From Kineococcus xinjiangensis (GTDB taxonomy: Bacteria > Actinomycetota > Actinomycetes > Actinomycetales > Kineococcaceae), in NCBI RefSeq assembly GCF_002934625.1, contig NZ_PTJD01000020.1, positions 1 to 42,529 on the forward strand: 42,529 bases of DNA, given 5' to 3'. The notes beneath the pieces are model-generated. The model did not search any database, was not told the DNA's origin, and saw only the letters and a program-made list of their open reading frames with translations. The translations under genes and the position numbers were made by a program. This document shows, piece after piece, positions 1 through 42,077 of this stretch (its first letter is position 1; every line of letters starts with the position of its first letter).

Positions 1-63
1 GGCCGATTGACCCCTATCGAGTACGAGACCATCATGACCGCACCGGCCAATCAGGCCGCGTGA
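1..63 (+). pseudogene. IS3-family transposase OrfB, C-terminal end only
   Basis: The reading frame from base 1 ends GRLTPIEYETIMTAPANQAA followed by TGA. The LTPxEYE motif is typical of the last residues of IS3-family OrfB (DDE/rve) transposases, so this is the 3' end of an element lying mostly outside the window. It is a different lineage from the IS3-type element at 4262-5519, which ends LSPAEYERLHTAAIAAA. Whether the rest of the gene is intact cannot be seen. Confidence 0.75.
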
Positions 64-95
64 CCTGATCTGACACCGGATCATGCAGCAGACCC
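1..95 (+). mobile_element. Right end of an IS3-family element (partial)
   Basis: The transposase 3' end is followed by about 30 non-coding bases. From base 96 the sequence becomes identical to 5998 onward, so the IS end probably lies near 95. No second terminus is visible, so the inverted repeat and target duplication cannot be defined. The element has replaced whatever preceded the hairpin array in this copy: the leader present before the other two arrays is missing here. Confidence 0.5.
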
Positions 96-420
96 CAGCG
101 CCGGCGCTGATGGTTCGCAGGGCAGGGGCCGAGCCGCAGGCGAGCTCGGCTTGACCGAAGGCGGCGGGCGGCCAGGATCGAACGCCGGGAGGGGCAGGAC
201 CCCAAGAAGACGCCGCCGCGTCAGCGGCGACCGCCCAGCCCGCGAGGAGCGAGCGGGACGACCAGCCAGCAGAACAGAGGCGAACGAGGCACGAGCACGC
301 CACCACCGCGGCGGCCCCAGAGCGAGGAACGAGCGAGCCGCCGCCACCCCCGGCGCCAAGGCCCGCCAGGGCCGCAGCCCCGGGGCAACAGGCGCCGCCG
401 AAGGCGCCCGCACCAACCGC
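96..420. repeat. Hairpin-array repeat, copy 1
   Basis: Bases 96-344 are identical to 5998-6246 (offset 5902). The tail to about 420 resembles copy 3 more than copy 2. It contains a GCCGAGC/GCTCGGC stem, a CGCCGC-GTCA-GCGGCG stem, and a stem CCCGC/GCGGG at 239-257 enclosing the loop GAGGAGCGA. Further GAGGMACGA motifs follow near 287 and 323, the latter inside a GCGGCGG/CCGCCGC outer stem. Open frames across it look like translated repeat and are not called as genes. Confidence 0.8.
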
Positions 421-507
421 ACCGTTCACAGCTGACCAAAGACTGCCATGGTTGTAGTTCCACAGTTAGCGAGACTTCGCCACCAGGGCCGCGTAGGGTC
501 TTCGAGC

Positions 508-1068
508 GTGGAATGGAGTGACCTGGACTGGGGAAACCTTCCGAGCTGGGGAGCGTTTCTGGCTGCCTCAATCGCCGTCACTCTGGCCGCTGGCGCCTAC
601 AAGCGAGAAGGTCAGCGTGACCAGTTGAAGCAGCGTCTCGCAATACAGGAACAGGCATCGAAGGTTGGGGCCTGGATTGCCCGAGTCGTCGAAGGCCGGG
701 CGGTTGAGGCGCGACTTCTCAACCGATCTGACCTCCCCGTCACAAACATGGAGGTTTGGGTTGAAGCGAAGCTCAAGCCCGGGCTCACTGGGCGAACTGG
801 TCCTCCAATCATCAGCAACCTGGGGCATACGATTCCTGTACTGGAACCCAAGGATGACAAAACGGCGACTATGAACCTGCCGGCTGGAACCACGGAGGAG
901 AGCTACGATTTCAGGGTAACCAGCACCTTCACAGATGCACTGGGGATCAAGTGGAGACGCACTCCGGACTCACTTGAACCTGACGGCGAGAACCAGCCGT
1001 CTTGGCATCGCCAGATGGCAGAGCTCAACGCGAGGGTTTGGCGCTCTGTCAGGCATCGAAGGTTGTGA
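508..1068 (+). CDS. Small membrane-anchored protein of unknown function
   Basis: Unrecognised family. I chose GTG 508 (about 186 aa), giving the N-terminus VEWSDLDWGNLPSWGAFLAA; an in-frame ATG at 448 would add 20 residues of arginine-rich sequence with no sign of selection. One transmembrane segment (about residues 11-30, GAFLAASIAVTLAAGAY) is followed by a basic, coiled-coil-like stretch (KREGQRDQLKQRLAIQEQ). The remainder is soluble and may be a small beta domain (ARLLNRSDLPVTNMEVWVEAKL), an arrangement seen in many actinobacterial proteins of unknown role. It stands alone between the repeat and an IS5 element; a weak hairpin follows at 1104-1137. Confidence 0.6.
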   Translation: MEWSDLDWGNLPSWGAFLAASIAVTLAAGAYKREGQRDQLKQRLAIQEQASKVGAWIARVVEGRAVEARLLNRSDLPVTNMEVWVEAKLKPGLTGRTGPPIISNLGHTIPVLEPKDDKTATMNLPAGTTEESYDFRVTSTFTDALGIKWRRTPDSLEPDGENQPSWHRQMAELNARVWRSVRHRRL

Positions 1069-1103
1069 AAATCTGCACGAGCTCTCTATGCCGCCTGATG
1101 TCC

Positions 1104-1137
1104 GTCCTCGTCACTGCTCGTCCAGCACGGCGAGGAC
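1104..1137 (+). terminator. Possible terminator after the 508-1068 gene
   Basis: GTCCTCG (1104-1110) and CGAGGAC (1131-1137) form a perfect 7-bp stem with a 20-base loop, 36 bases after the stop. There is no U-tract, which is usual in high-GC actinobacteria. The long loop makes this a weak call. Confidence 0.3.
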
Positions 1138-1152
1138 AGACCTTGGTGCTTA

Positions 1153-2047
1153 CAGCTCATTTCACTATGACTTCGGGAGTTTGCGGTAGCAGATGAGGGC
1201 GCAGGCCAGCTGCAGGAGCCCGAGGTGCAGGTCGGCACGGACTTCGAAGCGGGTGCGGAGGCGCTTGAACTGGTGCAGCCACGCGAATGTCCGCTCCACC
1301 ACCCAGCGAACGTGCCCGAGGCCGGAGCCGTGGGCGATGCCGCGGCGGGCGATGCGGGGCACGATGGCGCGTGTCCGCAGGGCGCGGCGGTAGACGTCGA
1401 AGTCGTAGCCGCGGTCGGCGAACAGGTAGCGCGGGCGCCAGCCGGGCCGGCCGCGGATGCCCCGCACGAGCGGGAAGGCGTCCACCAGGGGCAGCAGTTG
1501 GGTCACGTCGTGGCGGTTGCCGCCGGTCAGCGTCACGACGAGGGGAACCCCGCCTGCATCGGTGAGGAGGTGGTGCTTGGAGCCGTTGGGGGAGCGGTCA
1601 ACCGGTGAAGGGCCGGTGTGAGCCCCCCTTGAGGGCCCGCACGTGCGAGCCGTCCACCACCGCGGTCTCCAGGTCCAGCTTTCCCGCCGCACGCAGCTCA
1701 TCGAGCAGGACCTGGTGCAGGCGGGGCCACACGCCCGCCTCGGTCCAGTCCCGCAGCCGCCGCCAGCACGTCACCCCTGAACAGCCAAACTGCTCAGTGG
1801 GAACCTGCGCCCAGGTGCAGCCGGTGATCAGCACGTGGACGATCCCGGCCAGCGCGGCGCGGTCATCGCGGGGCAGGCGTCCTGGGTAGCGGTGCCGGCG
1901 TGGCGGACGCTCAGGCAGCAGCGGCTACACCCGCTCCCACAGTCCCTCGGGCACCAGCTCCGCGACCCGCGCGGGCACCACGTCGTCGGCCATGCCACCA
2001 GGCTGCTCCCACCTCACCGCCCCAGCAAGTCATACTGAAACGAGCTG
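1153..2047 (-). mobile_element. IS5-family (IS427-like) insertion sequence
   Basis: Terminal inverted repeats are visible: CAGCTCATTTCACTATGACT from 1153, and the reverse complement of the right end reads CAGCTCGTTTCAGTATGACT. A TA lies outside each end, fitting the short TA-centred target preference of IS427-type elements. The element is about 895 bp and carries one transposase split over two frames on the minus strand, the usual layout of this group. The nonsense codon in the first frame suggests it no longer transposes on its own. Confidence 0.8.
1165..1993 (-). pseudogene. IS5-family transposase, amber stop in the first frame
   Basis: The first frame starts at 1993 (MADDVVPARVAELVPEGLWE...), meets TAG at 1927-1925 after codon 22, then continues open in the same frame (PLLPERPPRRHRYPGR...) through VDGSHVRALKGGSHRPFTG to a stop near 1598. 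The second frame carries the catalytic core: HTGPSPVDR, the TGGNRHD motif, LFADRGYD, and the VVERTFAWLHQF signature ending near 1165. Passing from frame one to two needs a +1 (or -2) slip near AAGGGGGGCTC at about 1621-1631, a plausible programmed site. Where the stop lies, relatives have a glutamate or similar residue (ERVEPLLP). Reinitiation at ATG 1834 is possible but would lose the N-terminal domain. Confidence 0.75.
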
Positions 2048-2212
2048 TAAGCCAACGGCAGATCCCACGTCGCAGCTCGCAGCGCGTGATCCTCGGTGGT
2101 TCCAGGCTCGACGCCTTCCGCGGCTTCTGTCGAAACGTGCACAGGGTGCGGAGTAGGACGGTAGGGTCCGACAACCCTTCCGGTGATGCAAGTGCTAGGA
2201 GCTGCTCGAACA

Positions 2213-3607
2213 ATGCAATATCGCACCAAGACCGGCCTGGCCGCCGCCGTGACCCTGACGATCAGCTTGCTGATCCCGACCGCAGCGGCTACAGCGCCGG
2301 AGACGGCGGCCCAGCTTCCCACCGAGGCATCAACTCGTCCCTCGAACGCGCAGCCGTCCCCCACGTTGGCGGAGCGTCCGGATTTGGCAGGGAAGCCGCT
2401 GCGCGCGGTACGAGCTGACGAGGCAGATCGGCTCAAGGCCGCCAAGGACAATCTACCGAAGGTTGATGCCCTGCGCGCGACTGTCGCCAAGCTCGGCGGC
2501 ACTACCAGTCTGGATGTCACCAGCGTCGCGGAGTACGCGCGCACCGAGGGCGTCAGCACTGAGGAAGCCGAGCGGCGCCTGCTCCTTGAGGAGCAGGCAG
2601 CAGTAACGATGAACTGGCTAGCGGAGAACCGCCCGCACAGCTATACGGAGTTCCGCTTGGAGAGGAACCCCTACCACTTCGAGTACCGCAGCACCGACCC
2701 CGTCGACAAGGCCCTCGCTGGCGCTCCTCTTGGCGACATCGGCGACCTCATCACTGTGCACGAGGTGAAGCACTCTGGCGTGTGGTTGCAGCGTAGGACC
2801 GAGGCACTGGCCAAGGGTGTGCGAGCGCGCGGCGTCAAGGTTGATGCGGGTATTGACTTGGGTGCGCAGCGGATCGAGTTGTCGGTTGAAGCCAAGGACA
2901 TGTCCAAGGTGCGCAGTGTGGTCGAGGCTGACCCGGTAATGACGAGCAGTGCGACGGTGGACGTCACCGACACTGGAGGTTCCACTCCCGCGGTTCGGGT
3001 TCATGGCGGCCTAAATTTCGACTCCCGAGACGGTGACTGCACAACCGGGTTCGCGGCTGTCCGACGAGACGGTGTTCGTGTGCTGTGGATATCGGCGCAC
3101 TGTCCCAACCGCGGGACTGTGGTGCACGGCAGCGGGTCGCCCACATATGTGAACGACGTCGAGCACTACTTCCAGGGCCAGGACGTCCAGCAGATGTTCG
3201 CGACTGTCTGCTGCATCCAGGTGCCGAACTGGGTTAACGACGCCCAGAACCCGGCTGGTGACCCGACGCCCTGGTACCGCCGCATTACGAACTACCAGCT
3301 CAGCAACGTGAACATGATCAATCGGCGGGTCGAAAAGTACGGACGCAACACCGGGTACAACTCTGGCCTCATCGAGCGTACCAACTTTTCCCCCAGTTAC
3401 GTGCCCCGTGTCACCGCGACGTTCTACACCGTCGCTCTGCTAGCCCGCTGTGGCGACAGCGGTGGACCCGTCATGATCGGGGAGGTTGCCTACGGCGTCC
3501 TCAGCGGCAGTACGAACCGTGACTCGTGCCTTGCCACGACCCGGGACCGAATGATCTACATGCCGGTGCGTAACTCGACTCTGCCCTCTACGATCGCGGT
3601 CAATTAA
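2213..3607 (+). CDS. Secreted chymotrypsin-fold serine protease (S1 family)
   Basis: A 464-aa exported protease. ATG 2213 gives a clean signal peptide: basic MQYRTKTG, hydrophobic LAAAVTLTISLLIPTAA, cleavage near ATA-AP. GTG/ATG codons at 2183-2186 would add ten residues. A pro-region of about 230 residues precedes the catalytic domain, as in alpha-lytic/streptogrisin-type enzymes. The His of the triad is in LWISAHC (about residue 296) and the nucleophile in CGDSGGPV (about 416). A YGRNTGYNSG motif lies between them, where streptogrisins have a G-R-T-T-G turn; the Asp is not assigned with certainty. Paired cysteines (GDCTTGF, SAHC, CGDSGG) suggest disulphides. The substrate is unknown. It is a single gene with a candidate -10 TAGGGT near 2162, followed by a lipoprotein gene about 100 bp downstream. 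Confidence 0.85.
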   Translation: MQYRTKTGLAAAVTLTISLLIPTAAATAPETAAQLPTEASTRPSNAQPSPTLAERPDLAGKPLRAVRADEADRLKAAKDNLPKVDALRATVAKLGGTTSLDVTSVAEYARTEGVSTEEAERRLLLEEQAAVTMNWLAENRPHSYTEFRLERNPYHFEYRSTDPVDKALAGAPLGDIGDLITVHEVKHSGVWLQRRTEALAKGVRARGVKVDAGIDLGAQRIELSVEAKDMSKVRSVVEADPVMTSSATVDVTDTGGSTPAVRVHGGLNFDSRDGDCTTGFAAVRRDGVRVLWISAHCPNRGTVVHGSGSPTYVNDVEHYFQGQDVQQMFATVCCIQVPNWVNDAQNPAGDPTPWYRRITNYQLSNVNMINRRVEKYGRNTGYNSGLIERTNFSPSYVPRVTATFYTVALLARCGDSGGPVMIGEVAYGVLSGSTNRDSCLATTRDRMIYMPVRNSTLPSTIAVN

Positions 3608-3705
3608 CAACCCGCGTGAGCCATCGCCCGGGCAAGTCTGGGTTTGTCGGTGGCTCGATTGCCCAAGCGATGGAACCAGCACATGAAGGGGCGCGTCTAC
3701 GTTCC

Positions 3706-4152
3706 ATGAGCGCATATCGAATCACGCAGCAGGGGACCCTGATCGCTGCCCTGCTTCTGCTGGCCGCCTGCGGCTCCGCTGAGAGCAGGGGAGGAGCAGC
3801 CCCACAGGCGTCCACGATGGCCCCTGTCTCTCCTGTCATTACCGCGCCGGAGCCGGCCGAAGCGGACTCCCCCGGCGCGCTCGTTAAGGGAACCTTGGAG
3901 CGGGCCGATGACTGCCTGTACCTCAACGGTGTGCCCATCATCTGGGTGGCCGGGACGACATGGGACGAGAGCGCAGCCAAGGTCCGCACCCCGGATGGAT
4001 CGAGTGTGGCCGTCGGCGGTGACGTCTCGGGCGGCGGCGGCCAGGTCAGCGAGGTCGGCACCGTCTACGGCGAGGAGGTTGCTGACCGCGTGGCCAAGTG
4101 CTCAGACGGAGGCGACAAGGCTGTATACATCAGCGGCGCATCCACGGCGTAG
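3706..4152 (+). CDS. Small lipoprotein of unknown function
   Basis: ATG 3706 gives a lipoprotein signal (MSAYRITQQGTLIAALLLLAACG) with lipobox LAAC at residues 20-23, predicting a lipid-anchored protein on the outer face of the membrane. The open frame extends to 3616, but that extension would bury the signal peptide. After a low-complexity linker, the mature domain of about 100 residues has two cysteines (DDCLYLNGVPIIW and VAKCSDGG) that could form a disulphide. It resembles small lipoproteins that follow exported enzymes in actinobacteria, but I do not recognise the family. It is co-directional with the protease and ends before a strong terminator hairpin at 4171-4212. Confidence 0.7.
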   Translation: MSAYRITQQGTLIAALLLLAACGSAESRGGAAPQASTMAPVSPVITAPEPAEADSPGALVKGTLERADDCLYLNGVPIIWVAGTTWDESAAKVRTPDGSSVAVGGDVSGGGGQVSEVGTVYGEEVADRVAKCSDGGDKAVYISGASTA

Positions 4153-4170
4153 AGCTAGCACGTGACCAAA

Positions 4171-4212
4171 GTCAGGCTGGCTGTCCTTGCACGTAGGGAC
4201 GGCCAGCCTGAC
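4171..4212 (+). terminator. Strong intrinsic terminator hairpin
   Basis: GTCAGGCTGGC (4171-4181) pairs with GCCAGCCTGAC (4202-4212). The stem extends inward through TGTCC/GGGAC around the loop TTGCACGTA. It lies 19 bases after the lipoprotein stop and is the longest perfect stem in the first 10 kb. Confidence 0.8.
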
Positions 4213-4300
4213 GGGTTCAGCCCGGATCAACCGCTGATCTTGATGGCTCAGCATGACCAGCGGAGCTTGACCCGGTTTCCCGGACAGGCGGGTGGCTCGA

Positions 4301-5139
4301 TCATGCCGCAGCAATCGCCGCGGTGTGAAGCCTCTCGTACTCGGCAGGGCTGAGGTAGCCGATGCCGGAGTGGCGCCGGCGGGGGTTGTAGAACGCTTCG
4401 ATCCACTCGAACATCGCCGACGCCAGTTCGGCTCTGGTGGACCAGGTGCAGCGGTCGAGCAGCTCGCGCTGCATCGTGGACCAGAAGCTCTCCATGAGCC
4501 CGTTGTCGACGCTGGAGGCGACGCGGCCCATCGAGCCCAGGAGGCCGGCAGTCCGCAACCGGTGCCCGAAGATCCACGAGGTGTACTGGCTGCCTCTGTC
4601 GGCGTGGACGATGGTTCCCGGCTGCGGACGGCGTCGCCAGCAGGCCATCTCCAGGGCGTCGACGACGAGCTCGGCGCGCAGTAGACCTTGCCCTCGCCGG
4701 TGGGGTGCTCAGTGATGTCTGTGACCCAGAGGCGATCCGGTTCCTCAGCAACGAAGCGACGCTGAACCAGGTCCTCGTGCGGTGCCGGCAGTGGGCGGGA
4801 CCCGGACCGCTTGCGGCGGTGGCAGACCCCGACCAGACCGGCGGCGCGCATGAGCCGGGCGATGCGCTTGCGCCCGCAGGCGATGCCCAGACCCAGGCGC
4901 AGTTCGGCTGGGGGTACCTCCCGCTCGCGGGGGAGCACTCGTGGAGCACCGTAGGTGGCCCGCGACGCGGCGTGGACCTTGGTGATCGTCTGCGTCAGTG
5001 CCGCATTCGCCTTGGAGCGGCTCGACGCGGGGCGGTCGCGCCACTCGTAATAGCCCGAGCGGGAGACGCTCAGCACCCGACAGGTCACCGCGACGGGTAA
5101 GCCGTCGGCGGCAAGGTCACGGACCAGCGGGAAGATCAT
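4301..5139 (-). pseudogene. IS3-family transposase OrfB with internal deletion and insertion
   Basis: The N-terminal part (MIFPLVRDLAADGLPVAVTC..., HTH_21-like region, CGRKRIARLMRAAGLVG, then the first catalytic Asp in LWVTDITEHPTGEGKVYCA) is followed after about 4680 by a shift of frame to LRAELVVDALEMACWRRR, IVHADRGSQYTS (second Asp), then MESFWSTMQRELLDR and the LSPAEYE tail. Relatives have about 20 more residues (VVLDxFSRRVVGW...) between the two parts, so roughly 60-75 bp are missing and the frame is lost. Around 4907-4945 a ten-residue stretch (LPREREVPPA) replaces the usual HA between APRV and ELRLG, the translation of a small palindromic insertion. The gene cannot make a normal DDE enzyme. 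Confidence 0.8.
4907..4945. repeat. Small palindromic insertion inside the IS3 transposase
   Basis: The + strand reads GGTACCTCCCGCTCGCGGGG then GAGCAC. CTCCCGC and GCGGGGGAG fold back on each other. Relative to other IS3 OrfB proteins it adds about eight codons in frame. Very similar short CTCCCGC...GCGGGGGAG palindromes are scattered in Streptomyces genomes as I recall them, but I have not checked this. Confidence 0.45.
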
Positions 5140-5453
5140 TTTGGGTCTGGCAGCGCCTCCCGAGCGAAGTAGGCGCTGGCCCGGCGCAGGATCTCGATCT
5201 CCATGGCCTGCACCCGCGTCTTGCGGCGCAGCTCGATCAGCTCAGCTCGTTCGCCACCGTCGAGCACGGTAGCCGCGTCTGGACCGGTGCGGCCGCCGGC
5301 ACGGACGGTGCCGCCTTCGGCCAGGCCGACCCAGCGGCGCAGGCAGGACTCGCTGATGCCGAGGTCAGCGGCGATCTTCCCCAAGGGCTGCTCACGCAGC
5401 TGGGCCAGCTCCACGGCACGCTGACGGAACTCCGGCGGGTGGGGTCGGGGCAT
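5136..5453 (-). CDS. IS3-family transposase OrfA (helix-turn-helix)
   Basis: A 105-aa OrfA beginning MPRPHPPEFRQRAVELAQ, a typical HTH_Tnp_1/IS3 start. The helix-turn-helix is LGKIAADLGISESCLRRWVG (about residues 24-43), which binds the IS ends. It is followed by the leucine-zipper-like region ERAELIELRRKTRVQAMEIEILRRASAYFA used for oligomerisation in this family. The stop overlaps the orfB start by four bases, allowing coupling or programmed frameshifting to the OrfAB fusion. OrfA is intact, but with orfB broken it could act only as a repressor or in trans with another copy such as that at 42435. Confidence 0.85.
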   Translation of the reverse strand: MPRPHPPEFRQRAVELAQLREQPLGKIAADLGISESCLRRWVGLAEGGTVRAGGRTGPDAATVLDGGERAELIELRRKTRVQAMEIEILRRASAYFAREALPDPK

Positions 5454-5510
5454 CGCAGGACTCCTCTCTGGGCGACATCATCGCCTCAGGTTGGTGTCCG
5501 GAGAAGCGGG

Positions 5511-5753
5511 TCAAGCTCCGGTGGGGTGTCCACCGCCGGGAGCGTCGACGTCGGCCACGTCTCGGCCGTGGTGGGTGAGGATGGCCGTGAAGGGGTAGCC
5601 GGGCACGTAGATCGGGCCGCAGTAGGCGCGGACGGTGAAGTCCTGCGAGGGGGCAGGGGTCAGGGTGGCGGGGAGCAGGACCGCCTCGCCGTCCGGGCTG
5701 TCGTCCTGCGGGTCGAGCATGGGCGCGTCGCTGAGGGCGCTGTGGCTGGTCAC
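5511..5753 (-). CDS. Unknown small protein, 3' end replaced by the IS3 element
   Basis: GTG 5753 is preceded by GAAGGAG at good spacing, giving VTSHSALSDAPMLDPQDDSPDG and so on, 80 aa in the present frame. The last codons and stop (TGA at 5513-5511) lie inside the IS terminal repeat, so the protein is a truncated version of a longer one. No motif is recognised; the surviving part is acidic then hydrophobic (FTVRAYCGPIYVPGYPFTAILTHHG). Its upstream region (5805-5970) is nearly the same as the one before the 10748 gene although the two proteins are not alike, which suggests shared regulation rather than gene duplication. Confidence 0.55.
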   Translation of the reverse strand: MTSHSALSDAPMLDPQDDSPDGEAVLLPATLTPAPSQDFTVRAYCGPIYVPGYPFTAILTHHGRDVADVDAPGGGHPTGA

Positions 5754-5804
5754 CAGATCGCTCCTTCTCTGCCGTGGGTTTGCCTGTGCGGGCGTGAACG
5801 TGTG

Positions 5805-5970
5805 CCGGGCGGGGACTCGGCCGTCTGCCTGCGGCATCCGGCCGAGCGTTTCTTCGCCCCCTCCCGGCGTCTTGAGATCCAGGCCGCTGGAGCCGTGCGC
5901 AGGCACCCGCAAGGGCAGCGGCGCAGCCGCTGAGCCGAGGAAGCCCCGCACCGAGAACGATCACGACGGC
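5805..5970 (-). promoter_or_regulatory. Shared non-coding leader, copy A
   Basis: About 165 bases are almost identical to 10776-10942, including CCGTCTGCCTGCGGCATCC, CCCCCTCCCGGCGTCTTGAG and ACCGAGAACGATCACGACGG. Each copy sits just upstream of a minus-strand gene and just downstream (in minus-strand sense) of a hairpin array. It contains the self-complementary AGCGGCGCAGCCGCT. Conservation without conserved protein downstream points to a promoter/leader, possibly a structured 5' UTR. I cannot match it to a known riboswitch. Confidence 0.55.
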
Positions 5971-5979
5971 GCTGCCAGC

Positions 5980-6290
5980 GACCGAGGAACGAAGAAGCAG
6001 CGCCGGCGCTGATGGTTCGCAGGGCAGGGGCCGAGCCGCAGGCGAGCTCGGCTTGACCGAAGGCGGCGGGCGGCCAGGATCGAACGCCGGGAGGGGCAGG
6101 ACCCCAAGAAGACGCCGCCGCGTCAGCGGCGACCGCCCAGCCCGCGAGGAGCGAGCGGGACGACCAGCCAGCAGAACAGAGGCGAACGAGGCACGAGCAC
6201 GCCACCACCGCGGCGGCCCCAGAGCGAGGAACGAGCGAGCCGCCGCACCCCCAGCCGCAGGCCGGGCGACAGGCGCCGCCGCAGGCGTCC
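5980..6290. repeat. Hairpin-array repeat, copy 2
   Basis: 5998-6246 is identical to 96-344. The flank to about 6290 diverges from copy 1 but keeps the GGCGCCGCCGCAGGCG-type tail. It contains the GCCGAGC/GCTCGGC stem, the GTCA-capped stem and GAGGMACGA/GAGGAGCGA loops. It is continuous with leader copy A. Confidence 0.8.
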
Positions 6291-6628
6291 GCGTCAGCTT
6301 CGTGGCCGACGAGTGTCTGGTTTCGGCCTCTCAGATGAGGGACTGAAACCAGAAGCGGTGCCGGTCAGGCTTCTGGCTGCTTCGGTCGCGGCCGGGCCAA
6401 CGACATCAGGACGGCACGTCACGTCGCTCGCGAAGTCGGCTGCATCAGCGGCGGCAAGAGCCTCCGTCGGCTTCTCCTCGTCGGCAGGGTCGGCAGCGTG
6501 CTGAGGCCCACACCGCTGCCGCCTACTCAGGCCCGGCAGGCGCCGGCGCCGTCCTTCGCGGCGTCAGCGCGACGTTGTGCGGTGTACCGGGTGACTCGTT
6601 TGCGGTGATCAGCGGGGGCCGTGGTGAC
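6291..6628. other. Gene-free stretch with a stem-loop
   Basis: No convincing gene. CTGGTTTC (6317-6324) pairs with GAAACCAG (6345-6352), enclosing CCTC-TCAGAT-GAGG. AGAAGC and GCTTCT form a second hairpin immediately after. This could be a terminator for the minus-strand lipoprotein gene ending at 6629 or the edge of an old insertion. A frame of about 63 codons here has no gene-like features. Confidence 0.35.
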
Positions 6629-7069
6629 TCAGCTACCGCCGCCGGCGATTACCCACCGATCCTCACGGAGGACCAAGTCGAGTGATCCTTCGGAGCTCGG
6701 TGTGTCGCTGAAGCTGATCGCTTCCTCCGGCACGTGGGCGGTGTCACCAGTCACCTTGATCATGGACTCGTCCACTTCCACGTCAGCCATCAACCGACGC
6801 AGCTCCTCGGTGGCACGCTCAGCGGTCAGGATCTCGCAAGGCTTGCCGGTGAGGCGTTGCAGCTGCTCCTGCAGTCCAGAGTCGACCATCGCGCATGCCT
6901 CGCCAAACTCGCTCTCGGCGACGTGCCCATAGAAGGTGTTCACCGTCTCAGTGGGAGAGTCCTGCCCTCCACCGCAGCCGCTCACCGCCGCGACGAGCAG
7001 CACACCGAGGCTCAGACGTGCCCCGGCGCCCCGGAAAAGGACGCGACTGGAGGAGCAGGTCTTCGTCAT
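6629..7069 (-). CDS. Lipoprotein, DUF4878/NTF2-like
   Basis: A 146-aa lipoprotein. ATG 7069 is chosen because GGGAG lies at proper spacing; that site overlaps the in-frame ATG 12 bases upstream. Signal peptide MTKTCSSSRVLFRGAGARLS then hydrophobic LGVLLVAAVSGC, with the lipidated Cys at about residue 32. The mature domain DSPTETVNTFYGHVAESEFGEACAMVDSGLQEQ resembles DUF4878-type NTF2-like folds, in which a conserved Cys pair (EACAM and GKPCEIL) is common. It ends with LVLREDRWVIAGGG, the expected last strand. Role unknown; such lipoproteins are often extracellular sensors or small-ligand binders. Confidence 0.7.
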   Translation of the reverse strand: MTKTCSSSRVLFRGAGARLSLGVLLVAAVSGCGGGQDSPTETVNTFYGHVAESEFGEACAMVDSGLQEQLQRLTGKPCEILTAERATEELRRLMADVEVDESMIKVTGDTAHVPEEAISFSDTPSSEGSLDLVLREDRWVIAGGGS

Positions 7070-7221
7070 GGCGTCTCCCATAGCGGCGGCGGTGTCGGGT
7101 AGGGCGAGCCCTCTCAGTCGCTCTCTGCGCCGTGAGCGTCCCAGAGGGCAACCTATCCGCCCGCGCAGAGGCATGGCCAGGGTGGGCCGTGCGGCCCGGT
7201 CCGGTCGGGCTGCTGTGCTCG

Positions 7222-8217
7222 TCAGTGCTTCCGGATCGGCTTCACGCTGGGGTCGTTGGGCCGCCGTTCAGTGACGTACCAGGTCAACGCCTCCTCAATG
7301 CGGACATCGCCTGCGGTGACCGGCGCGGTCGGCGCCGCACCCTCGAGACGGCGTGCTCCGAGGACGGCCGCGGCGAGACGCTCGGCCTGCTGCTCCTGGA
7401 TGGCGGTGACATCGGTCGGACTGGTGTGCAGGGAGACGTGGCGGACGATGCCAGCAGAGTCGACGCCAATCAGGACGCCGAGCGGCGAGGTGGCCCCCGC
7501 GTCGTCGAACGGGGCCTGGTCGCGTGTCGCCTCGTCCGCTCCTGCGGCGGTCAGCGCCGAGGCGCGGCGGGCGAGCGGCGTGTCGCGTGTGACGCCGAGG
7601 TGGGTCACGACGGTGGCGGCGTCGGTGGCGATGCCGCGGCGCACGAGCTGGCGGGCGACTTCGCCTTCGCGCACGTTCAGGCGGGCGGCCAGCTGGGGCA
7701 GCGGCTCGCGCTGCTGCCAGGCGGCGCGCAGTTCCTCGGTGGTGGCGGGGAACGTCTTGGCCCGGGCCTGACTCAGCGCCTGACGCCAGTCGTAGACGCC
7801 GGCGGTGGGGCCGTACACGGACAGGCGGTCGCGCAGCCAGTTCACCCGCTCACCGATCGCGTCGGGGAAGCCCTCACCTTCGGGGACCATGCGGGAGCAG
7901 CGGGACTCGATGGCTCCGCGGGTGCGGTTGTGGGACTTGGCGATGTCGGCGATGGTCAGGCCGGCGGCGAGCTCACGCACGAGCTGGGCGTCCTCGGTGT
8001 CGTTCCAGCGTCCACCGGCCCCGGCGGGGCGGGTGCGGGTGCGGGCCGGGGTGTCGCTCACGCGGTCCATGCTGCCAGGCCAGGCGGTGTCCGGCCGGGA
8101 CCTGGCGGGGTGGGGGCGGCGGTTTCCGCCGCCGTTGAGCATGGGCCGGCGCACGATCCAGGGGATCGCGCGGGTGCCGGGGCGGGAGGTCTGGGTGGTC
8201 GTGGTCGTGGCGGTCAT
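7222..8217 (-). CDS. Myb/SANT-like helix-turn-helix protein, unknown role
   Basis: ATG 8217 is preceded by GGAGAAACCG, giving a 331-aa protein MTATTTTTQTSRPG and so on. After a disordered N-terminus, residues about 68-110 (GGRWNDTEDAQLVRELAAGL TIADIAKSHNRTRGAIESR) form a Myb/SANT-type three-helix DNA-binding unit with the usual tryptophan and a second-helix IADIAKSHNRT. A second possible winged region follows (PLPQLAARLNVREGEVARQLVRRG). The C-terminus (SPLGVLIGVDSAGIVRHVSLHTS...) may be a small alpha/beta domain. It lies downstream of the PP-loop gene, separated by an 11-bp-stem hairpin at 8255-8286, so it may be made at a lower level. It could be the regulator or DNA-binding partner of that protein; this is inference. 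Confidence 0.6.
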   Translation of the reverse strand: MTATTTTTQTSRPGTRAIPWIVRRPMLNGGGNRRPHPARSRPDTAWPGSMDRVSDTPARTRTRPAGAGGRWNDTEDAQLVRELAAGLTIADIAKSHNRTRGAIESRCSRMVPEGEGFPDAIGERVNWLRDRLSVYGPTAGVYDWRQALSQARAKTFPATTEELRAAWQQREPLPQLAARLNVREGEVARQLVRRGIATDAATVVTHLGVTRDTPLARRASALTAAGADEATRDQAPFDDAGATSPLGVLIGVDSAGIVRHVSLHTSPTDVTAIQEQQAERLAAAVLGARRLEGAAPTAPVTAGDVRIEEALTWYVTERRPNDPSVKPIRKH

Positions 8218-8254
8218 CGGTTTCTCCGTTGGCTGGGTTGTGTCGGGTGGGCTG

Positions 8255-8286
8255 GTGGGAGGCGGCCGGGCGTGACCGCCTCCCAC
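8255..8286 (-). terminator. Intercistronic hairpin between the PP-loop and Myb-like genes
   Basis: GTGGGAGGCGG (8255-8265) and CCGCCTCCCAC (8276-8286) form a perfect 11-bp stem around CCGGGCGTGA. It sits 21 bases after the PP-loop stop and 38 bases before the next start, so it may act as an attenuator or mRNA-processing stem. Confidence 0.6.
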
Positions 8287-8307
8287 GGGGCTGTGCGCGG
8301 TGTGGTC

Positions 8308-9654
8308 TCAGGCGGTGTCGTGCAGTGGCTGGCCTGCGTCGAGGCGGCGCCACCAGAGGTCGAAGTCGGGCTTGGCCTTGTCCGCGAGGCCGGCGGGGGC
8401 GATGGTGACGAAGTGCTCGCGGGTGGGCAGGGTGGCGCCGCGGCGGCGCAGCCACAGGCGGGTGATGCCGTCGTGGTCGCTGACGGGGAAGCCGGCGCGG
8501 GCCGCCTTCTGGTGCAGTCGCTGCTGCAGCTGGGCGCGGCTTCCGGTGGCGATGATGCGGATGCTGCGGTCGGCGCGGCCGAGCTTGGCGGGGTCCTTGG
8601 CGGCGGGGCGCAGGATGCGGCGGACCTCGACGAGGACGTGGTCGGAGGCGTCCAGGGCGTCGTGGAAGGCGGTCAGGACGTGGCCGAGGTCGGCCTGGCG
8701 GATGAGGTCGATGGCGCTTCCTCTGCCGAGCAGGCCCTGCGCGGGGTTCAGGGCGAGGGAGCGGTGTTCGATCATGAGGATGTCCACGCCGGCCGCTGGG
8801 TCGGCGGCGATGCGCTCGAGGACGCGCTGGCGGCCCTCCTTGTTGGCCAGGGAGAACGGGCAGTAGGAGCAGGCCGACTTCTCCCAGACGATCCCGCCGG
8901 TGACGCCGGCGATGAAGTCGATGCAGCGCTGACGGTCCCAGTTCCAGTCGATGAGGGGGTAGACGGCGCTACGGTTGGCCGGTCCCTGGACGTGGTCTCC
9001 CTTCTTCTTGCCGCCGGTGTGGAGGTTGCCGAACGCCCGGGTGAGCTCGTTGGCCTCGAACCCGATCGCGTGGCGGTAGCCGCGTCCGGCGGTGAGGGCG
9101 TCGATCACCGGGTCCAGCACGGCTCCCTTGGCGCGCAGGGAGCAGCGCCGGTCCCCGCCGACCTGGGGGACGGTGGCGGTGAGGGTGAGCTCGTCGGAGA
9201 GGCGAAAGTCGCCGTCCAGGTGGAGCCGCTCAGGGGATCGGGAGTCGTCGAGGATGACGATGCCGTCCCCGGCGATGGTGGTGTGCAGGCGCGAGCGTGC
9301 GGCCTGCACCAGCCGCACGCCGTGGGCCCGCAGCAGGGGCAGGACGTGGTCCTCGCAGTCGCGGCCGGTGGAGGCCCACTCGTCGCCGGTCATGGCGACG
9401 ACGACCACGAGGTCCTCCAGGGCGAAGTCGCGGCTGGCCGGCTCCTGGATCCAGCGCAGCAGGATGGCGGTGGAGTCGACCCCGAGCCCCCAGGACAGGA
9501 TCATGCTGGGGCGCCGGCTCCCGGTCAGCTGCTCACGCCACTGCCGCAGCGGAGTCCCGACGCGACTGCGGGTCCTGCTTCCGATGCTGCTCGGGCGGGG
9601 GGTTGCTCGGCGGCCGGATCGGGTGGGTGCCTGCGTGGGGTGCTGGCTGGGCAT
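8308..9654 (-). CDS. PP-loop ATPase, PAPS-reductase-like
   Basis: A 448-aa protein with an adenine nucleotide alpha-hydrolase (PP-loop) domain. The nucleotide loop is LSWGLGVDSTAILLRW (about residues 53-68), followed by VVVVAMTGDEWASTG, the second strand typical of PAPS-reductase-like proteins. A CSYCPF motif (about residue 262) may bind metal or hold a reactive thiol, as in thiolation enzymes. Start 9654 has GGAGAG at good spacing. Proteins of this class adenylate a substrate and are common on phages and plasmids, where roles in nucleic-acid modification (DndC-like) or sulphur transfer are proposed. No dnd partner genes are seen here, so the substrate is unknown. It is followed by the Myb-like gene. 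Confidence 0.7.
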   Translation of the reverse strand: MPSQHPTQAPTRSGRRATPRPSSIGSRTRSRVGTPLRQWREQLTGSRRPSMILSWGLGVDSTAILLRWIQEPASRDFALEDLVVVVAMTGDEWASTGRDCEDHVLPLLRAHGVRLVQAARSRLHTTIAGDGIVILDDSRSPERLHLDGDFRLSDELTLTATVPQVGGDRRCSLRAKGAVLDPVIDALTAGRGYRHAIGFEANELTRAFGNLHTGGKKKGDHVQGPANRSAVYPLIDWNWDRQRCIDFIAGVTGGIVWEKSACSYCPFSLANKEGRQRVLERIAADPAAGVDILMIEHRSLALNPAQGLLGRGSAIDLIRQADLGHVLTAFHDALDASDHVLVEVRRILRPAAKDPAKLGRADRSIRIIATGSRAQLQQRLHQKAARAGFPVSDHDGITRLWLRRRGATLPTREHFVTIAPAGLADKAKPDFDLWWRRLDAGQPLHDTA

Positions 9655-9724
9655 GGTGCTCTCCTGCGGTTGGGCTGGTCGGTGCGGGCGGCGCGGGATG
9701 TGAGGGAAGCGGCCAGGGGGGCGC

Positions 9725-9758
9725 CCCCGGGGACCCTCCGGGTGGTGGGTCCCCGGGG
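9725..9758 (-). terminator. Strong terminator hairpin
   Basis: CCCCGGGGACCC (9725-9736) and GGGTCCCCGGGG (9747-9758) form a perfect 12-bp stem with a 10-base loop, just beyond the stop of the minus-strand gene ending at 9768. It separates that gene from the PP-loop gene. Confidence 0.75.
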
Positions 9759-9767
9759 CGGTCGGGC

Positions 9768-10748
9768 TCAGGAGTCCGTGGCGCTGCTCCGGGCCGTCTC
9801 GGCCGCACGGGAGTCGGTGGCGGTGGGGTCGAGGATCTGGCGCAGCCAGCCCTGTCCCTCGGGCAGTCGCACGACGGTGGTGGCAAGGTCACCGGCGGCG
9901 AGCAGGGCGCTGAAGGCGGCCATCATGCGGGGGTCGTCGTCGCTGTGGGCGAAGACGGCCACGATGTCGGTGGCCGGTCGGGCGTCGAGGTAGCTGACGC
10001 TCAGGCGCAGGGCGTCGGGGGGAAGCGCACCGGGGGTGACGTCGACGAAGGAGAACTCAGCGGCCGGCCCGAGCTCCAGCAGGTACATCAGCAGGTCGGT
10101 GGTGCAGGCCAGGGCGTCTTCGACGTCGGGCAGGCCGACCCGCACCGACACCAGCGCCTCGCCGTCCCCGTCGCGCACCGCGCCTGCGGGCAGGTCCTCG
10201 TTGTCCCGCTTGCCGGGCAGCAGCTGCGGCTCCACCAGGTTCAGGGCCTGCACGGGGTTGCGCAGCTGGGTGGCGGTGGCGGGCTCGGCGTGGAAGCGGG
10301 GCAGGTCGCTGTCGCCGGTGAGGCGTTCCACCGTCGCCTGCCACTCGCCGAGCGTGATGCCGCCGTCGTGGAAGGCGGTGACGTAGACCTGGCCGCTGCA
10401 GTCGGTGTCGGTGATCGGCAGGTAGTCCACCACCGACGTCGTCACGGCGTGCCGGGCGGCCTTCACTGCCGTCTGCTCCGCGAGGAGGTCGGGGTGCTCG
10501 GAGATGACCACGACGCTCTGGCTGCCGTCGCCGTGGGTGATGCAGAGCTGGCCGGCGTCGGCCTCGCTGAGGTGGACTCCGCCGTTCCTGGCGGCGGTGT
10601 CCAGCAGGACGAATGCCTTGGCGTGGGCGTCGCTGCGGTTGCGGTGGCTGCTGTCGTGCTGCGGCATGTCGTCGTGGCGGTTGAGGTCGAGCAGTTCCAG
10701 CTCGACGGGCAAGACCTCGTGCTCGCTGGTGTTCGGCTGTGCGGTCAC
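9768..10748 (-). CDS. Unknown cytosolic protein, 326 aa
   Basis: GTG 10748 with AAGGAG at good spacing gives VTAQPNTSEHEVLPVELELL and so on. The open frame continues upstream to 10925 through the conserved leader, but that part is also present before an unrelated gene and is not thought to be coding. No signal peptide, membrane segment or recognised motif. The composition is acidic with mixed alpha/beta segments (AKAFVLLDTAARNGG, SQSVVVISEHPDLLAEQTAVKAA, DIVAVFAHSDDDPRMMAAFSALLAAG). It is a single gene closed by the 9725-9758 hairpin. The conserved leader at 10776-10942 suggests that its expression is controlled together with the 5753 gene. Confidence 0.65.
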   Translation of the reverse strand: MTAQPNTSEHEVLPVELELLDLNRHDDMPQHDSSHRNRSDAHAKAFVLLDTAARNGGVHLSEADAGQLCITHGDGSQSVVVISEHPDLLAEQTAVKAARHAVTTSVVDYLPITDTDCSGQVYVTAFHDGGITLGEWQATVERLTGDSDLPRFHAEPATATQLRNPVQALNLVEPQLLPGKRDNEDLPAGAVRDGDGEALVSVRVGLPDVEDALACTTDLLMYLLELGPAAEFSFVDVTPGALPPDALRLSVSYLDARPATDIVAVFAHSDDDPRMMAAFSALLAAGDLATTVVRLPEGQGWLRQILDPTATDSRAAETARSSATDS

Positions 10749-10775
10749 GTCGCGCTCCTTGGGTCGAGACCAGGT

Positions 10776-10942
10776 GTGCCGGGGCGGGAACCGGGCCGTC
10801 TGCCTGCGGCATCCGGCCGAGCGTTTCTTCGCCCCCTCCCGGCGTCTTGAGATCCAGGCCGCTGGAGCCGTGCGCAGGCACCCGCAGGGCAGCGGCGCAG
10901 CCGCTGAGTCGAGGAAACCCCGCACCGAGAACGATCACGACG
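10776..10942 (-). promoter_or_regulatory. Shared non-coding leader, copy B
   Basis: Near-identical partner of 5805-5970, with a handful of substitutions and one-base indels. It ends about 28 bases before GTG 10748. The conserved palindrome AGCGGCGCAGCCGCT and the run CCCCCTCCCGGCGTC are kept. It is contiguous with hairpin array copy 3, as copy A is with copy 2. Confidence 0.55.
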
Positions 10943-10949
10943 GCCGCGT

Positions 10950-11330
10950 CCTCGAGGGAGGCACGACCGAGAGCGGCCGGCGCTGATGGTTCGCAGCGTG
11001 CGGGGTCGAGCCGCAGGCGAGCTCGACTTGCCGCAGCACGGCGGGCGGCCAGGATCGGAAGCCGGGAGGGGAGAAGACCAACAACCGCCGCCGCGTCAGC
11101 GGCGACCGAGTGGCGGGCGAGGCACGAGCCCGCTCACCAGCAGCAGACCCGCGAGGCACGAGCGGGACGACCGCCCGCAGGGCGCACGCCGACGCAGGAG
11201 GCGCACAGCGGCGGCAGCAGAGCGAGGCACGAGCGAGCCGCCGCACCCCCGGTGCGCAGGCCCGCCAGGGCCGCAGCACCGGGGCAACAAGCGCCGCCGC
11301 AGGCGCCCGCCGGCCCGATCGGCGCTGTCC
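10950..11330. repeat. Hairpin-array repeat, copy 3 (diverged)
   Basis: Same order of elements as copies 1 and 2 but diverged. The first stem is GTCGAGC/GCTCGAC instead of GCCGAGC/GCTCGGC, a compensated base-pair change. Three clear GAGGCACGA loops occur: in stem GCGGGC/GCCCGC at 11113-11133, in CCCGC/GCGGG at 11148-11166, and inside GCGGCGGC/GCCGCCGC at 11208-11244. A further GAGGCACGA lies near 10968. Confidence 0.8.
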
Positions 11331-11378
11331 TGTGGATAGTCCAGCCCGGTAGCGGACTGTGGCGGCGACACTGGGCGG

Positions 11379-11546
11379 GTGGACGTCGACTGGACCGAGT
11401 GGCCGCACGTGTGCGCCGTGTGCGGACAGCTGCTGCACCCGACCCTGACGAGCACGGGCCGTCCCACTCAATGGCTCCACGGGCAGGTGCACGTCGACCA
11501 CATGACTGTGCCGCTGCTTCTGGCTCCGGCGGACCTCGCCAGGTAG
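11379..11546 (+). CDS. Small CxxC protein, possible zinc ribbon
   Basis: A 55-aa frame from GTG 11379: VDVDWTEWPHVCAVCGQLLH, then PTLTSTGRPTQWLHGQVHVD, then HMTVPLLLAPADLAR. One CxxC pair is followed by three histidines that could complete a metal site. The length and sensible composition support a real gene, but there is only a poor ribosome site. It sits between hairpin array 3 and the LGFP genes. It may be a member of the small zinc-ribbon proteins encoded at 21-23 kb. Confidence 0.4.
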   Translation: MDVDWTEWPHVCAVCGQLLHPTLTSTGRPTQWLHGQVHVDHMTVPLLLAPADLAR

Positions 11547-11590
11547 GCAGCGGACCATCCGAACCGCCCTCATGGCCTTCCGTCCGCCGC

Positions 11591-11596
11591 TACGGT
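11591..11596 (+). promoter_or_regulatory. Candidate -10 of a leaderless promoter
   Basis: TACGGT ends six bases before GTG 11603, the spacing expected for a leaderless actinobacterial transcript. No clear -35 is seen. Confidence 0.35.
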
Positions 11597-11602
11597 GCGA
11601 TC

Positions 11603-12445
11603 GTGTCTTCTTCGTTCAGGTCCACCCGCGGCGTGCGCCGTCGAGGTGCCGCTGTCGTGTTGTCTGTGGCCGCCTTGCTGACGGCGGCTGTGCCCGCGCA
11701 GGCGGACCCGCGAGTCGGTGGCGACATCGGCGTGGCCTACGAGCGGGACTACGGCGGTGCTCGCGGCGTGCTGGGCGAGCCGCTGACGCCGGAGATCCGC
11801 ACCCCGAACGGGAGGGGCGCCTACGTCGGCTTCCAGCACGGCTCGATCTACTGGAGCCCATGGACCGGCGCCCACGCGGTCCGCGGGGAGCTTCGCAACG
11901 GCTGGGGTCGCCTGGGCTGGGAGGGCGGACGCCTCGGCTTCCCCAAGTCCAGCGAGCGACCCACCGACAGCCGCAGGGCTGTGGTGCAGGACTTCGAGGG
12001 TGGGCGGATGTACTGGACGCCGTCGACCGGCGCCCACGCTCTCCAGGGCGCCATCCTCGAACGCTACGAGCTGCGCGGTGACCCGGAGAACGGGCGGGAC
12101 ATCATCGCCGAGCAGGCCCTCGGCTTCCCCACCTCCAGCGAGATCCGCACGCCCAACGGCAAGGGCGCCTACAACACCTTCCAGTGGGGTGCCATCTACT
12201 GGGAGCCGCAGTACGGCGCCCACCCGATCTTCGGGGCGATCCGCAGCCGCTGGGGCCGCGAGGGCTGGGAGAACGGCTGCCTCGGCTTCCCCATCACCGA
12301 GGAGTACAGCTACGAGGGCTACTCAACGGTTCAGGAGTTCCAGGGCGGCTGGATCTGGTTCCACCCCAGCTACGGCACCGAGGTGGACCTCTACCCTCGC
12401 AACGACCCCAGCTACAGCCGCTACGGCCTCTACCCCCGCTGCTGA
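11603..12445 (+). CDS. Secreted LGFP-repeat protein 1
   Basis: A 280-aa exported protein. GTG 11603 gives an Arg-rich n-region (VSSSFRSTRGVRRRG), hydrophobic AAVVLSVAALLTAA and an AQA cleavage site before DPRVGGDIG. The mature part consists of LGFP-type repeats of about 50 residues, each with an IYWSP/MYWTP/IYWEP strand, a GAH(A/P) turn and the LGFP box (RLGFPKS, ALGFPTS, CLGFPIT), plus a degenerate first unit (VLGEPLT). LGFP repeats are known in actinobacterial wall-associated proteins and are thought to bind envelope polymer. Its paralogue begins 115 bp downstream. Confidence 0.85.
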   Translation: MSSSFRSTRGVRRRGAAVVLSVAALLTAAVPAQADPRVGGDIGVAYERDYGGARGVLGEPLTPEIRTPNGRGAYVGFQHGSIYWSPWTGAHAVRGELRNGWGRLGWEGGRLGFPKSSERPTDSRRAVVQDFEGGRMYWTPSTGAHALQGAILERYELRGDPENGRDIIAEQALGFPTSSEIRTPNGKGAYNTFQWGAIYWEPQYGAHPIFGAIRSRWGREGWENGCLGFPITEEYSYEGYSTVQEFQGGWIWFHPSYGTEVDLYPRNDPSYSRYGLYPRC

Positions 12446-12560: not shown

Positions 12561-13325
12561 ATGACCTCTTGGAAGCTTCGCGCGGCGGGTGCTCTCGCCG
12601 CCGCGGTCGCGGCCGTCACCATGGCCGCTCCTGCGCAGGCCGATCCCCGCGTGGGCGGGGAGATCGGCTTCATCTACGAGCACCAGCACGGCGGTGCCAG
12701 CGGCTGGCTCGGGCAGCCGCTGACGCCTGAAATCCGCACTCCCAACGGCAAGGGTGCCTACGTCGTCTTCCAGAACGGCTCGATCTACTGGTCCCCGGGG
12801 ACTGGCGCCCGCGAGGTGCACGGGGAGCTCCGTAACGGTTGGGGTCGGCTCGGCTGGGAGGGCGGCTACCTCGGCTTCCCCACCTCCGACGAGCAGCCCA
12901 CGGCGAGCCGCCGGGGCAGGTTCCAGACCTTCCAGGGCGGGGCGCTGTACTGGGCACCCTGGACCGGCGCCCACGCCGTCCGCGGCGACATCCGCGATAC
13001 CTACGCGAGCTGGTATCAGAGCGAGGACATCCTCGGCTTCCCCATCACATCCGAGGTCCGCACCCCAAACAATCGCGGCGCCTACAACCACTTCCAGTGG
13101 GGCTCGATCTACTGGTCGCCGGACTACGGCGCCTTCCCCATCTACGGTGCAATCCGTGACCTGTACGCCAGTCAGGGGTGGGAGAACGGCCCCCTGGGCT
13201 TCCCTGTCTCAGCCGAGTTCGATTACGCCTTGTCCACCGTGGGTGAAGTAAAGGGCCAGGAGTTCGAGGGCGGATTCATCTGGTGGTGGCCGGAGGGCCA
13301 CGAGATCTACCTCACCGAGGGCTGA
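12561..13325 (+). CDS. Secreted LGFP-repeat protein 2
   Basis: A 254-aa paralogue of the preceding gene. Signal peptide MTSWKLRAAGALAAAVAAVT, then MAAPAQA before DPRVGGEIG. The LGFP units are YLGFPTS, ILGFPIT and PLGFPVS, with a degenerate WLGQPLT. Strands IYWSP, LYWAP and IYWSP and the conserved LRNGWGRLGWEGG are shared almost word for word with protein 1, showing tandem duplication. It differs in the C-terminus (QEFEGGFIWWWPEGHEIYLTEG) and lacks the final Cys of protein 1. Probably wall-associated; its own leaderless promoter suggests independent transcription. Confidence 0.85.
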   Translation: MTSWKLRAAGALAAAVAAVTMAAPAQADPRVGGEIGFIYEHQHGGASGWLGQPLTPEIRTPNGKGAYVVFQNGSIYWSPGTGAREVHGELRNGWGRLGWEGGYLGFPTSDEQPTASRRGRFQTFQGGALYWAPWTGAHAVRGDIRDTYASWYQSEDILGFPITSEVRTPNNRGAYNHFQWGSIYWSPDYGAFPIYGAIRDLYASQGWENGPLGFPVSAEFDYALSTVGEVKGQEFEGGFIWWWPEGHEIYLTEG

Positions 13326-27183: not shown

Positions 27184-27233
27184 CAGTAAGGTTTTGTCAG
27201 TAGCGACCGGTCGCTACTGACAAGGGCTCACTG
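27184..27233. mobile_element. 50-bp palindromic mini-element, copy 2
   Basis: The core 27196-27221 is a perfect 26-bp palindrome: GTCAGTAGCGACC and its complement GGTCGCTACTGAC. Outside it are CAGTAAG and GGCTCACTG. Both halves match the right terminus of the neighbouring transposase. Same architecture as copy 1 but different in the centre, so it arose or diverged independently. Confidence 0.6.
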
Positions 27234-42036: not shown

Positions 42037-42077
42037 CTCGTCGGGGGTGCCCACGGTCGGCTCTTCCGGCAGGACCG

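Follow-up and report, generated by a model that had tools for sequence, protein, structure and literature searches.

The closest described counterpart of the element treated here is establishment gene regulatory sequence type 1 (EGeRS1) of the Bacillus plasmid pLS20 and its relatives. The excerpts of its description on which we draw (PMC8708921) report stretches of 420-750 bp in several copies per plasmid, with multiple inverted repeats, lying directly upstream of the ribosome sites of establishment operons and showing no evident promoter; they call the mechanism 'unknown' and reject a single-stranded DNA reading because of strand polarity. In F and ColIb-P9, leading-region genes transcribed from the transferred strand are preceded by the folded Frpo/ssi elements, which have -35 and -10 boxes in the folded duplex (PMC11541004, in excerpt). 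The promoters of the phage N4 virion RNA polymerase are described, in the cited part of PMC4496689, as hairpins of the template strand whose loop has three bases and which contain a sheared G:A pair. With these systems we compare a repeated leader of the actinobacterium Kineococcus xinjiangensis, found on contig NZ_PTJD01000020.1 of assembly GCF_002934625.1 (positions 1 to 42,529, the whole analysed stretch of 42,529 nucleotides, here called the window), whose best reading is a new actinobacterial variant of the establishment-gene leader. The hairpin arrays seen in the window very probably belong to a leader that serves establishment and is repeated along a conjugative element. We know of no settled account of how the establishment genes of high-GC Gram-positive conjugative plasmids are expressed on entry; the sequence and fold of the leader would mark such genes, among them many unnamed genes with a possible role against host defence.

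Copies of the leader and their distribution

The preliminary description had reported hairpin arrays with a constant loop, GAGGMACGA, and changing stems at 96-420, 5980-6290 and 10950-11330, and these intervals hold all nine GAGGMACGA sites of the window (1.12 expected; none of 100 shuffles reaches nine). The stems it named are present, with 5, 7 and 5 bp at 244, 11119 and 11153, and so is the longer stem at 11208, which encloses the motif at 11224; at 244 the loop itself, GAGGAGCGA, is one base off the motif. The observation was real, but what it had caught lies on the other strand and has a larger scale. The arrays do not stand free: minus-strand open reading frames (ORFs) behind two of the window copies make each array the 5' part of a longer minus-strand leader ending at a gene start, opposite to the strand that had been read. 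Self-comparison of the window pairs 96-351 with 5998-6252 (99.6% identity) and 97-411 with 10972-11310 (79%), while 5800-6135 also matches 10774-11108, and nine copies aligned in the minus-strand sense give a long repeat with a ribosome site and a start codon at its 3' end. The leader measures about 450-750 bp, and profile matches of complete copies about 480-740 bp. Its parts in the window are the following:

10749-11339, minus strand: leader copy 3, complete, upstream of the gene at 9768-10748 and homologous to the other copies in the genome
10830-11072, minus strand: folded core of leader 3, from the consensus fold and pair counts of alignment A1
11073-11310: hairpin array of leader 3, with GA-S-GNA-S'-GA sites at 11119, 11153 and 11224 (plus strand)
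11177, plus strand: C-GNA-G hairpin in the leader 3 array
5754-6338, minus strand: leader copy 2, complete, recognised by homology to the other copies
5855-6097, minus strand: folded core of leader 2, closed by helix P1 (alignment A1)
96-458, minus strand: 5' half of a leader (profile match 69-458)

The half leader at 96-458 and a half copy at the end of contig C25 of the same genome are probably one leader split by an insertion of the IS3 family; window 1-103 resembles stretches annotated as IS3 transposase.

The motif had been noticed in three places only, and its distribution proved wider. A profile built on 20 leaders finds nine in this genome (G000), some incomplete, of which three lie in the window (contig C20) and six on C25; among relatives it finds five on one contig of G002, copies on three contigs of G009 and one in G132. 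Model R2, which covers 110 positions of the 3' part, has matches in 5 of 297 genomes of the order: eight in G000, five in G002, seven in G009 and one each in G132 and G067, hence 14 in the four relatives together. At the thresholds used for R2, G000 has none beyond C20 and C25. In the window it matches leader 3 at 10808-10919 (103.7 bits) and leader 2 at 5833-5945 (96.3 bits), both sequences having been used to build it. One 3'-part pattern retrieved 4 of the 297 genomes; another, run on a class sample of 394 without G002, G009 and G132, retrieved only the genome of origin, and in the family of G132 1 of 13 genomes was retrieved. Exact patterns gave no match in viral contigs, nor did leader DNA in phages, and against plasmids leader DNA gave just short weak matches of 62 and 57 nt (E about 1e-3), taken as chance. 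The string GAGGMRCGAGC is not enriched genome-wide (39 sites vs 68 for the reverse pattern); outside C20 and C25 it has 26 sites, of which the 18 inspected have stems of 0-2 bp. A scan of the genome contigs with an 18-base piece was too unspecific. We found no report of the leader family in the open-access literature searched.

In 16 of the 18 leaders with an intact 3' core, a start codon and ribosome site, sought 90-230 nt beyond GCCGGGAGGGG, stand 95-117 nt after it, and DNA self-comparison reveals no mutual similarity of the leader-borne genes outside the leaders. The copies do not resemble an independent non-coding RNA or a selfish palindromic element, two readings offered at first: they are fixed before the ribosome sites of different genes, and some gene families carry the leader in several genomes. 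Selfish or recombination elements spreading among genes (mobile palindromes or attC-like cassette ends) would agree with the fact that copies of the same element are mostly more alike than copies before related genes elsewhere; they are nevertheless a very improbable explanation, given the fixed orientation, the narrow spacing to start codons, the covarying core and the confinement of the copies in this genome to C20 and C25 at the search thresholds used. Integron cassettes of the attC kind and a CsrA-type sponge RNA were considered as possibilities only and set aside. The leader tree groups mainly by genome rather than by gene, which suggests amplification or gene conversion inside each element, with strong support for just 2 of its 13 inner branches. 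Copies of EGeRS1 from one plasmid likewise cluster in the excerpts of PMC8708921; here there is one exception, G9d with G2a.

Similar arrangements occur on named plasmids. It was through the proteins alone that plasmid relatives came to light: 4 plasmid records have the DUF932 protein and 262 the ParB-like protein, all actinobacterial among the matches listed, and 14 regions were taken from 40 of the 262 ParB-like records, chosen for spread over genera. In the fetched regions, genes for ParB, NrdH, ArdC-like, SSB, DUF4192 and DUF3560 proteins stand together, mostly co-oriented. Self-comparison revealed repeated stretches before such genes in 9 of the 11 regions tested first (Cellulosimicrobium, Cellulomonas, Mycetocola, Rathayibacter, Herbiconiux, Cryobacterium, two Microbacterium and Arthrobacter); it found none in the Mycolicibacterium region and just 33 nt in Paenarthrobacter. 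Five further regions comprised Nocardia asteroides with ten copies, Pseudonocardia with two (before genes at 8497 and 10587) and three with one or few shorter repeats, or with repeats resembling duplicated genes. The Nocardia asteroides plasmid region (L251, NZ_CP089213.1, 92078-121145) bears ten homologous folded leaders, from 2845 to 26388 of the region, on the strand leading toward a MobC gene at 28555. Eight of the ten stop 5-49 nt short of an annotated plus-strand gene; of the other two, one overlaps the annotated start of a gene and the copy at 10435-10703 is followed by no annotated gene. The best named-plasmid matches of R2 are three Cellulosimicrobium and two Nocardia leaders (E 0.012-0.2), on the right strand and 27-34 nt before genes; they give a weak hint that these leaders and those of the window may share common descent. 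PLSDB classes L251 as 'non-mobilizable' although the fetched region has the MobC gene, and likewise L259, whose fetched region has SCO6880-family and TrbC/VirB2 genes.

Fold of the core and strand bias of the hairpins

Alignment A1 contains 16 of the 21 known copies, those left out being w1, c17474 and G9f, which lack one P1 arm, and G2c and G2d, which have large deletions. Its consensus has 48 pairs, with standard pairs in 95.8% of cells, and 13 pairs show compensatory changes on both sides, against 7.1 ± 1.6 after shuffling (1 of 500 shuffles reaches 13), a count that is favoured by having derived the structure from the same rows. The covariation score reaches 0.182, whereas sliding the partners gives no more than 0.070. 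In the ten Nocardia leaders, 18 of 47 consensus pairs are compensatory, against 5.7 ± 1.8 in shuffles (none of 500 reaching 18), and the score is 0.205 against at most 0.086 when slid. The refuting outcome named at the outset, a want of significant covariation among homologues, thus did not arise, and covariation in two independent alignments supports the view, already voiced there, of selection on a folded nucleic acid.

The helices contribute unequally. Helix P1, CCCCUCCCGGC paired with GCCGGGAGGGG, closes the core (in leader 3 through arms 11061-11071 and 10833-10843) and hardly varies, so that it proves nothing alone. The first stem of the array had been described as carrying a compensated change, which is true of two window copies; over 16 copies its variable pair is broken in seven and covaries no more than expected. 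The same arm covaries instead with a distant partner: AAGYCGAG pairs with CTCGRCTC through U-A in eight copies and C-G in six, the pair being broken in two. By eye, the 3' arm of P1 (GCCGGGAGG) has in several copies a possible alternative partner just downstream, before the ribosome site (window 5833-5868 and 10808-10843), an arrangement that resembles a two-state switch.

The apparent loop GAGGNACGA reads GA-S-GNA-S'-GA, that is, a GNA triloop closed by the pair S-S' and flanked by tandem G.A mismatches. S and S' are Watson-Crick partners in 34 of 37 distinct sites (23 G/C, 11 C/G) and in all 14 sites with a stem of at least 3 bp (8 G/C and 6 C/G for x,y of the leader strand). The leader-strand form, UC-x-UNC-y-UC, occurs 61 times in 20 leaders and twice on the opposite strand, with x,y being G,C in 40 cases, C,G in 18 and another combination in 3. 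Tandem G.A mismatches are stabilising. GNA loops in DNA have been described as very stable hairpins (PMC6479982, in the part cited).

Among perfect triloop hairpins with a stem of at least 5 bp, 42 of 58 are C-GNA-G on the template strand and one is C-GNA-G on the opposite strand; by distinct sequence the count is 12 vs 1. One hundred shuffles yield a mean of 1.06 and a maximum of 4, and 85 kb of other DNA of the same genomes 2 and 3 of 194 triloop hairpins. Ordinary GC-rich intergenic drift has in its favour the composition of the genome and the frequency of short hairpins in such DNA; with counts that neither shuffles, slides nor control DNA reproduce, it can be practically dismissed. A 16:0 count from a set of 32 leaders is biased, these leaders having been picked after the hairpin map was seen, and the fair count is that of 17 of the 18 named-plasmid regions (L252, unannotated, was excluded). 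There, the gaps before plus-strand genes contain 34 C-GNA-G hairpins on the template strand vs 5 on the coding strand, while the coding regions contain 11 vs 11. Of the hairpins in the gaps, 33 on the template and 3 on the coding strand come from eight regions, those of Microbacteriaceae, Cellulosimicrobium and Cellulomonas.

Probable conjugative setting and candidate acting forms of the leader

In two relatives, the leader genes share a contig with transfer genes. On contig C508 of G002, genes for SCO6880-family, VirB4-like and VirD4/TraG proteins lie on the plus strand, followed by the relaxase and the leader genes on the minus strand; contig C34 of G009 has the same order, with secretion genes on plus and relaxase and leader genes on minus. 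Both genomes thus have the leader genes on the relaxase/VirD4 contig and directed toward the relaxase, an arrangement like that of plasmid leading regions. The Relaxase family is present in G000, G002 and G009, where TrwC is absent; G132 has TrwC. Compared with G000, the proteins of G002 C508 match best on C19 in the case of the transfer genes and relaxase, and on C25 and C20 in that of the leader genes, from which we conclude that the window is probably a piece of a conjugative element of the same kind.

The genes behind the leaders fit such a setting. A ParB-like family, scoring just below curated cut-offs, stands behind leaders in G000, G002 and G009, and the DUF932/TIGR03299 family in G000 and G009. 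Protein families of the LVTLHPDYV and SRD..LVLAHRGSWAE types recur behind leaders across genomes; a DUF4192 gene stands behind the G132 leader and, by eye, a similar protein behind the G067 copy. The clusters also hold a DnaG-like primase gene (three genomes) and a phage L5 gp82-like gene (G002). Judged by kind and place, the leader-borne genes would be establishment genes. Primase and ParB-like genes in the clusters also agree with single-strand landing or priming sites, at which primase, SSB or a ParB-like protein would be loaded for second-strand start or for protection, the place before genes being secondary, and a reference title calls Frpo a promoter also for primer RNA synthesis. The narrow range of distances to start codons points instead to expression, and we consider landing sites improbable.

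As for the strand that enters the recipient, pLS20 has its relaxase gene on the plus strand and its establishment genes on the minus strand. According to the excerpts of PMC8708921, the strand transferred there (T-strand) is the non-template strand of the establishment genes, which makes it the template of the relaxase gene. Since the leader genes are co-directed with the relaxase, the same rule would make the T-strand here the template strand of the leader genes, i.e., the strand bearing the GNA hairpins. Such a polarity would be the setting of single-strand promoters, in which the T-strand is read while single.

On this basis, a folded T-strand can be proposed, tentatively, as the acting form of the leader. 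Many genes of the leading region, which is first to enter the recipient, have a copy in front of them; the T-strand, as template of the leader genes, would arrive single-stranded and fold into hairpins. The folded DNA might then recruit RNA polymerase (alternatively a primase or a binding protein), and the leader genes would be expressed jointly at an early stage, until copying of the strand turns the structure into duplex. The template-strand position of the C-GNA-G hairpins relative to the downstream gene is a feature of N4 promoters that the leaders share, along with the 3-base loop and the sheared G:A pair; N4, as described in the cited part of PMC4496689, differs by its phage enzyme and single short hairpin, the leader having arrays and a large folded core. 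Taken further, C-GNA-G hairpins and GA-S-GNA-S'-GA arrays on the entering strand might form an undescribed, N4-like class of actinobacterial single-stranded DNA promoters that has no -10 boxes and fires the set of establishment genes together, a proposal that we regard as rather doubtful.

The leader would work like both EGeRS1 and Frpo, and we file it under neither because it lacks similarity to EGeRS1 (3' model) and a -10 element of the Frpo kind. It shares with EGeRS1 the length, the several copies, the inverted repeats, the place directly before ribosome sites and the want of an evident promoter. R2 has no match at E 0.5 in the pLS20 region (L267), the five EGeRS1 stretches, delimited from the gene table, have no C-GNA-G triloop on either strand, and the transferred strand, non-template there according to the excerpts of PMC8708921, would be the template here. 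With Frpo/ssi the leader shares the place of a folded element ahead of leading-region genes, which here too would be read from the transferred strand; it is longer, GC-rich and actinobacterial, and shows no -10 box of the kind that PMC11541004 places, in the part cited, in the folded duplex.

The alternative is a cis-acting RNA leader in the 5' untranslated region, an attenuator or antitermination device resembling EGeRS1 that would keep the genes silent in settled cells and let them be read on entry; it is a serious candidate, if short of probable. The sequence runs in gene direction up to a point shortly before the ribosome site, the core covaries, and the 3' arm of P1 can, by eye, pair with a closer downstream arm, as in switches. 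The layout recurs in EGeRS1, which lacks a constitutive sigma-A promoter and stops readthrough in the native direction (PMC8708921, in excerpt). An RNA leaves unexplained the C-GNA-G loops and GA-S-GNA-S'-GA hairpins on the opposite strand, and has no Rfam family: no match reaches the gathering score across the window, and the two sub-threshold matches over 5500-11600 (E 0.067 and 2.3) are not at the leader. We hold the single-stranded DNA form to be slightly more likely than the RNA form; an element in two parts, with a single-stranded DNA hairpin array and an RNA core, is possible.

Several results weigh against the folded T-strand. The consensus energies of A1 are -46 on the leader strand and -56 on the template strand (shuffled columns about -17 and -19), so both folds are strong, and the one copy tested folds better than shuffles on both strands, as RNA and as DNA. 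Wobble pairs in this leader family (11 G/T, 1 A/C) lean to leader-strand RNA, a count qualified by the excess of T over A on that strand; in the other plasmids they are 4 vs 6, and the wobble test is not decisive. No TANNNT (-10-like) string occurs in 18 of the 20 leaders (-35 elements were not scanned), so that a promoter of the Frpo type is not visible and the folded strand would have to be recognised otherwise, or the promoter to lie upstream. Copies within one element are related, and hairpin counts are not independent. By distinct sequence, the bias in the 17 regions is 17 vs 5 (p 0.017), weaker than the raw count. The other nine regions (Nocardia, three other Mycobacteriales, Embleya, Micromonospora, Pseudonocardia, Paenarthrobacter and Arthrobacter) have 1 template and 2 coding C-GNA-G hairpins in their gaps, where the bias is not seen, and this includes Nocardia with its ten leaders. 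The G000 relaxase is on a contig other than those of the leaders, C19, C20 and C25 being unjoined in the assembly, and a polarity reached by analogy with pLS20 is itself a point on this side. In the transfer-gene stretches, C-GNA-G hairpins lie mostly opposite the putative T-strand (7 of 8 on G000 C19, L245-L247; 4 of 5 on G002 C508, 1-10000, L214); they are few and mostly within or beside genes of the opposite direction. The bias may thus follow the template strand of each gene rather than the T-strand, which lowers our confidence in a T-strand DNA form. The near-identical layout of EGeRS1, with its missing promoter and readthrough block as excerpted, also speaks against it. The strand bias of the hairpins makes the choice between single-stranded DNA and RNA testable.

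Genes of the cluster and other features of the window

The ORFs of the window that belong to the leader cluster are:

9768-10748, minus strand: gene behind leader 3, GTG start, ribosome site AAGGAG, 326 aa
5511-5753, minus strand: ORF behind leader 2, GTG start, AAGGAG, 80 codons
7222-8286, minus strand: cluster ORF, 54% over 71 aa to an ORF in the G002 leader cluster
8308-9654, minus strand: cluster ORF of 448 aa, coding-like codon use, no Pfam or NCBIfam match

The product of 9768-10748 has no Pfam match and is 30% identical over 213 aa to the protein behind a G009 leader; its raw frame, 9768-10925, is long and has coding-like codon use. The ORF at 5511-5753 is probably a truncated gene and lies near an IS3-like transposase ORF (4102-5139).

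Other features of the window include pieces of insertion sequences, namely part of an IS5-family transposase at 1165-1701 and, at the contig end (42435-42529), a short stretch that repeats the IS3 region. An ORF of 474 aa at 2183-3607, without match in Pfam or NCBIfam, contains the string CGDSGGPV, which we take to resemble the motif of trypsin-type proteases. Adjacent similar regions at 11693-12304 and 12561-13325 share 73-83% DNA identity in pieces, and the product of the second has three LGFP repeats (PF08310). Finally, 42003-42405 is a tandem repeat of about 75 bp with copies 87-96% alike, and self-comparison reveals long near-perfect palindromes beyond the leader cluster at 27194-27223, 38983-39029 and 41715-41754.

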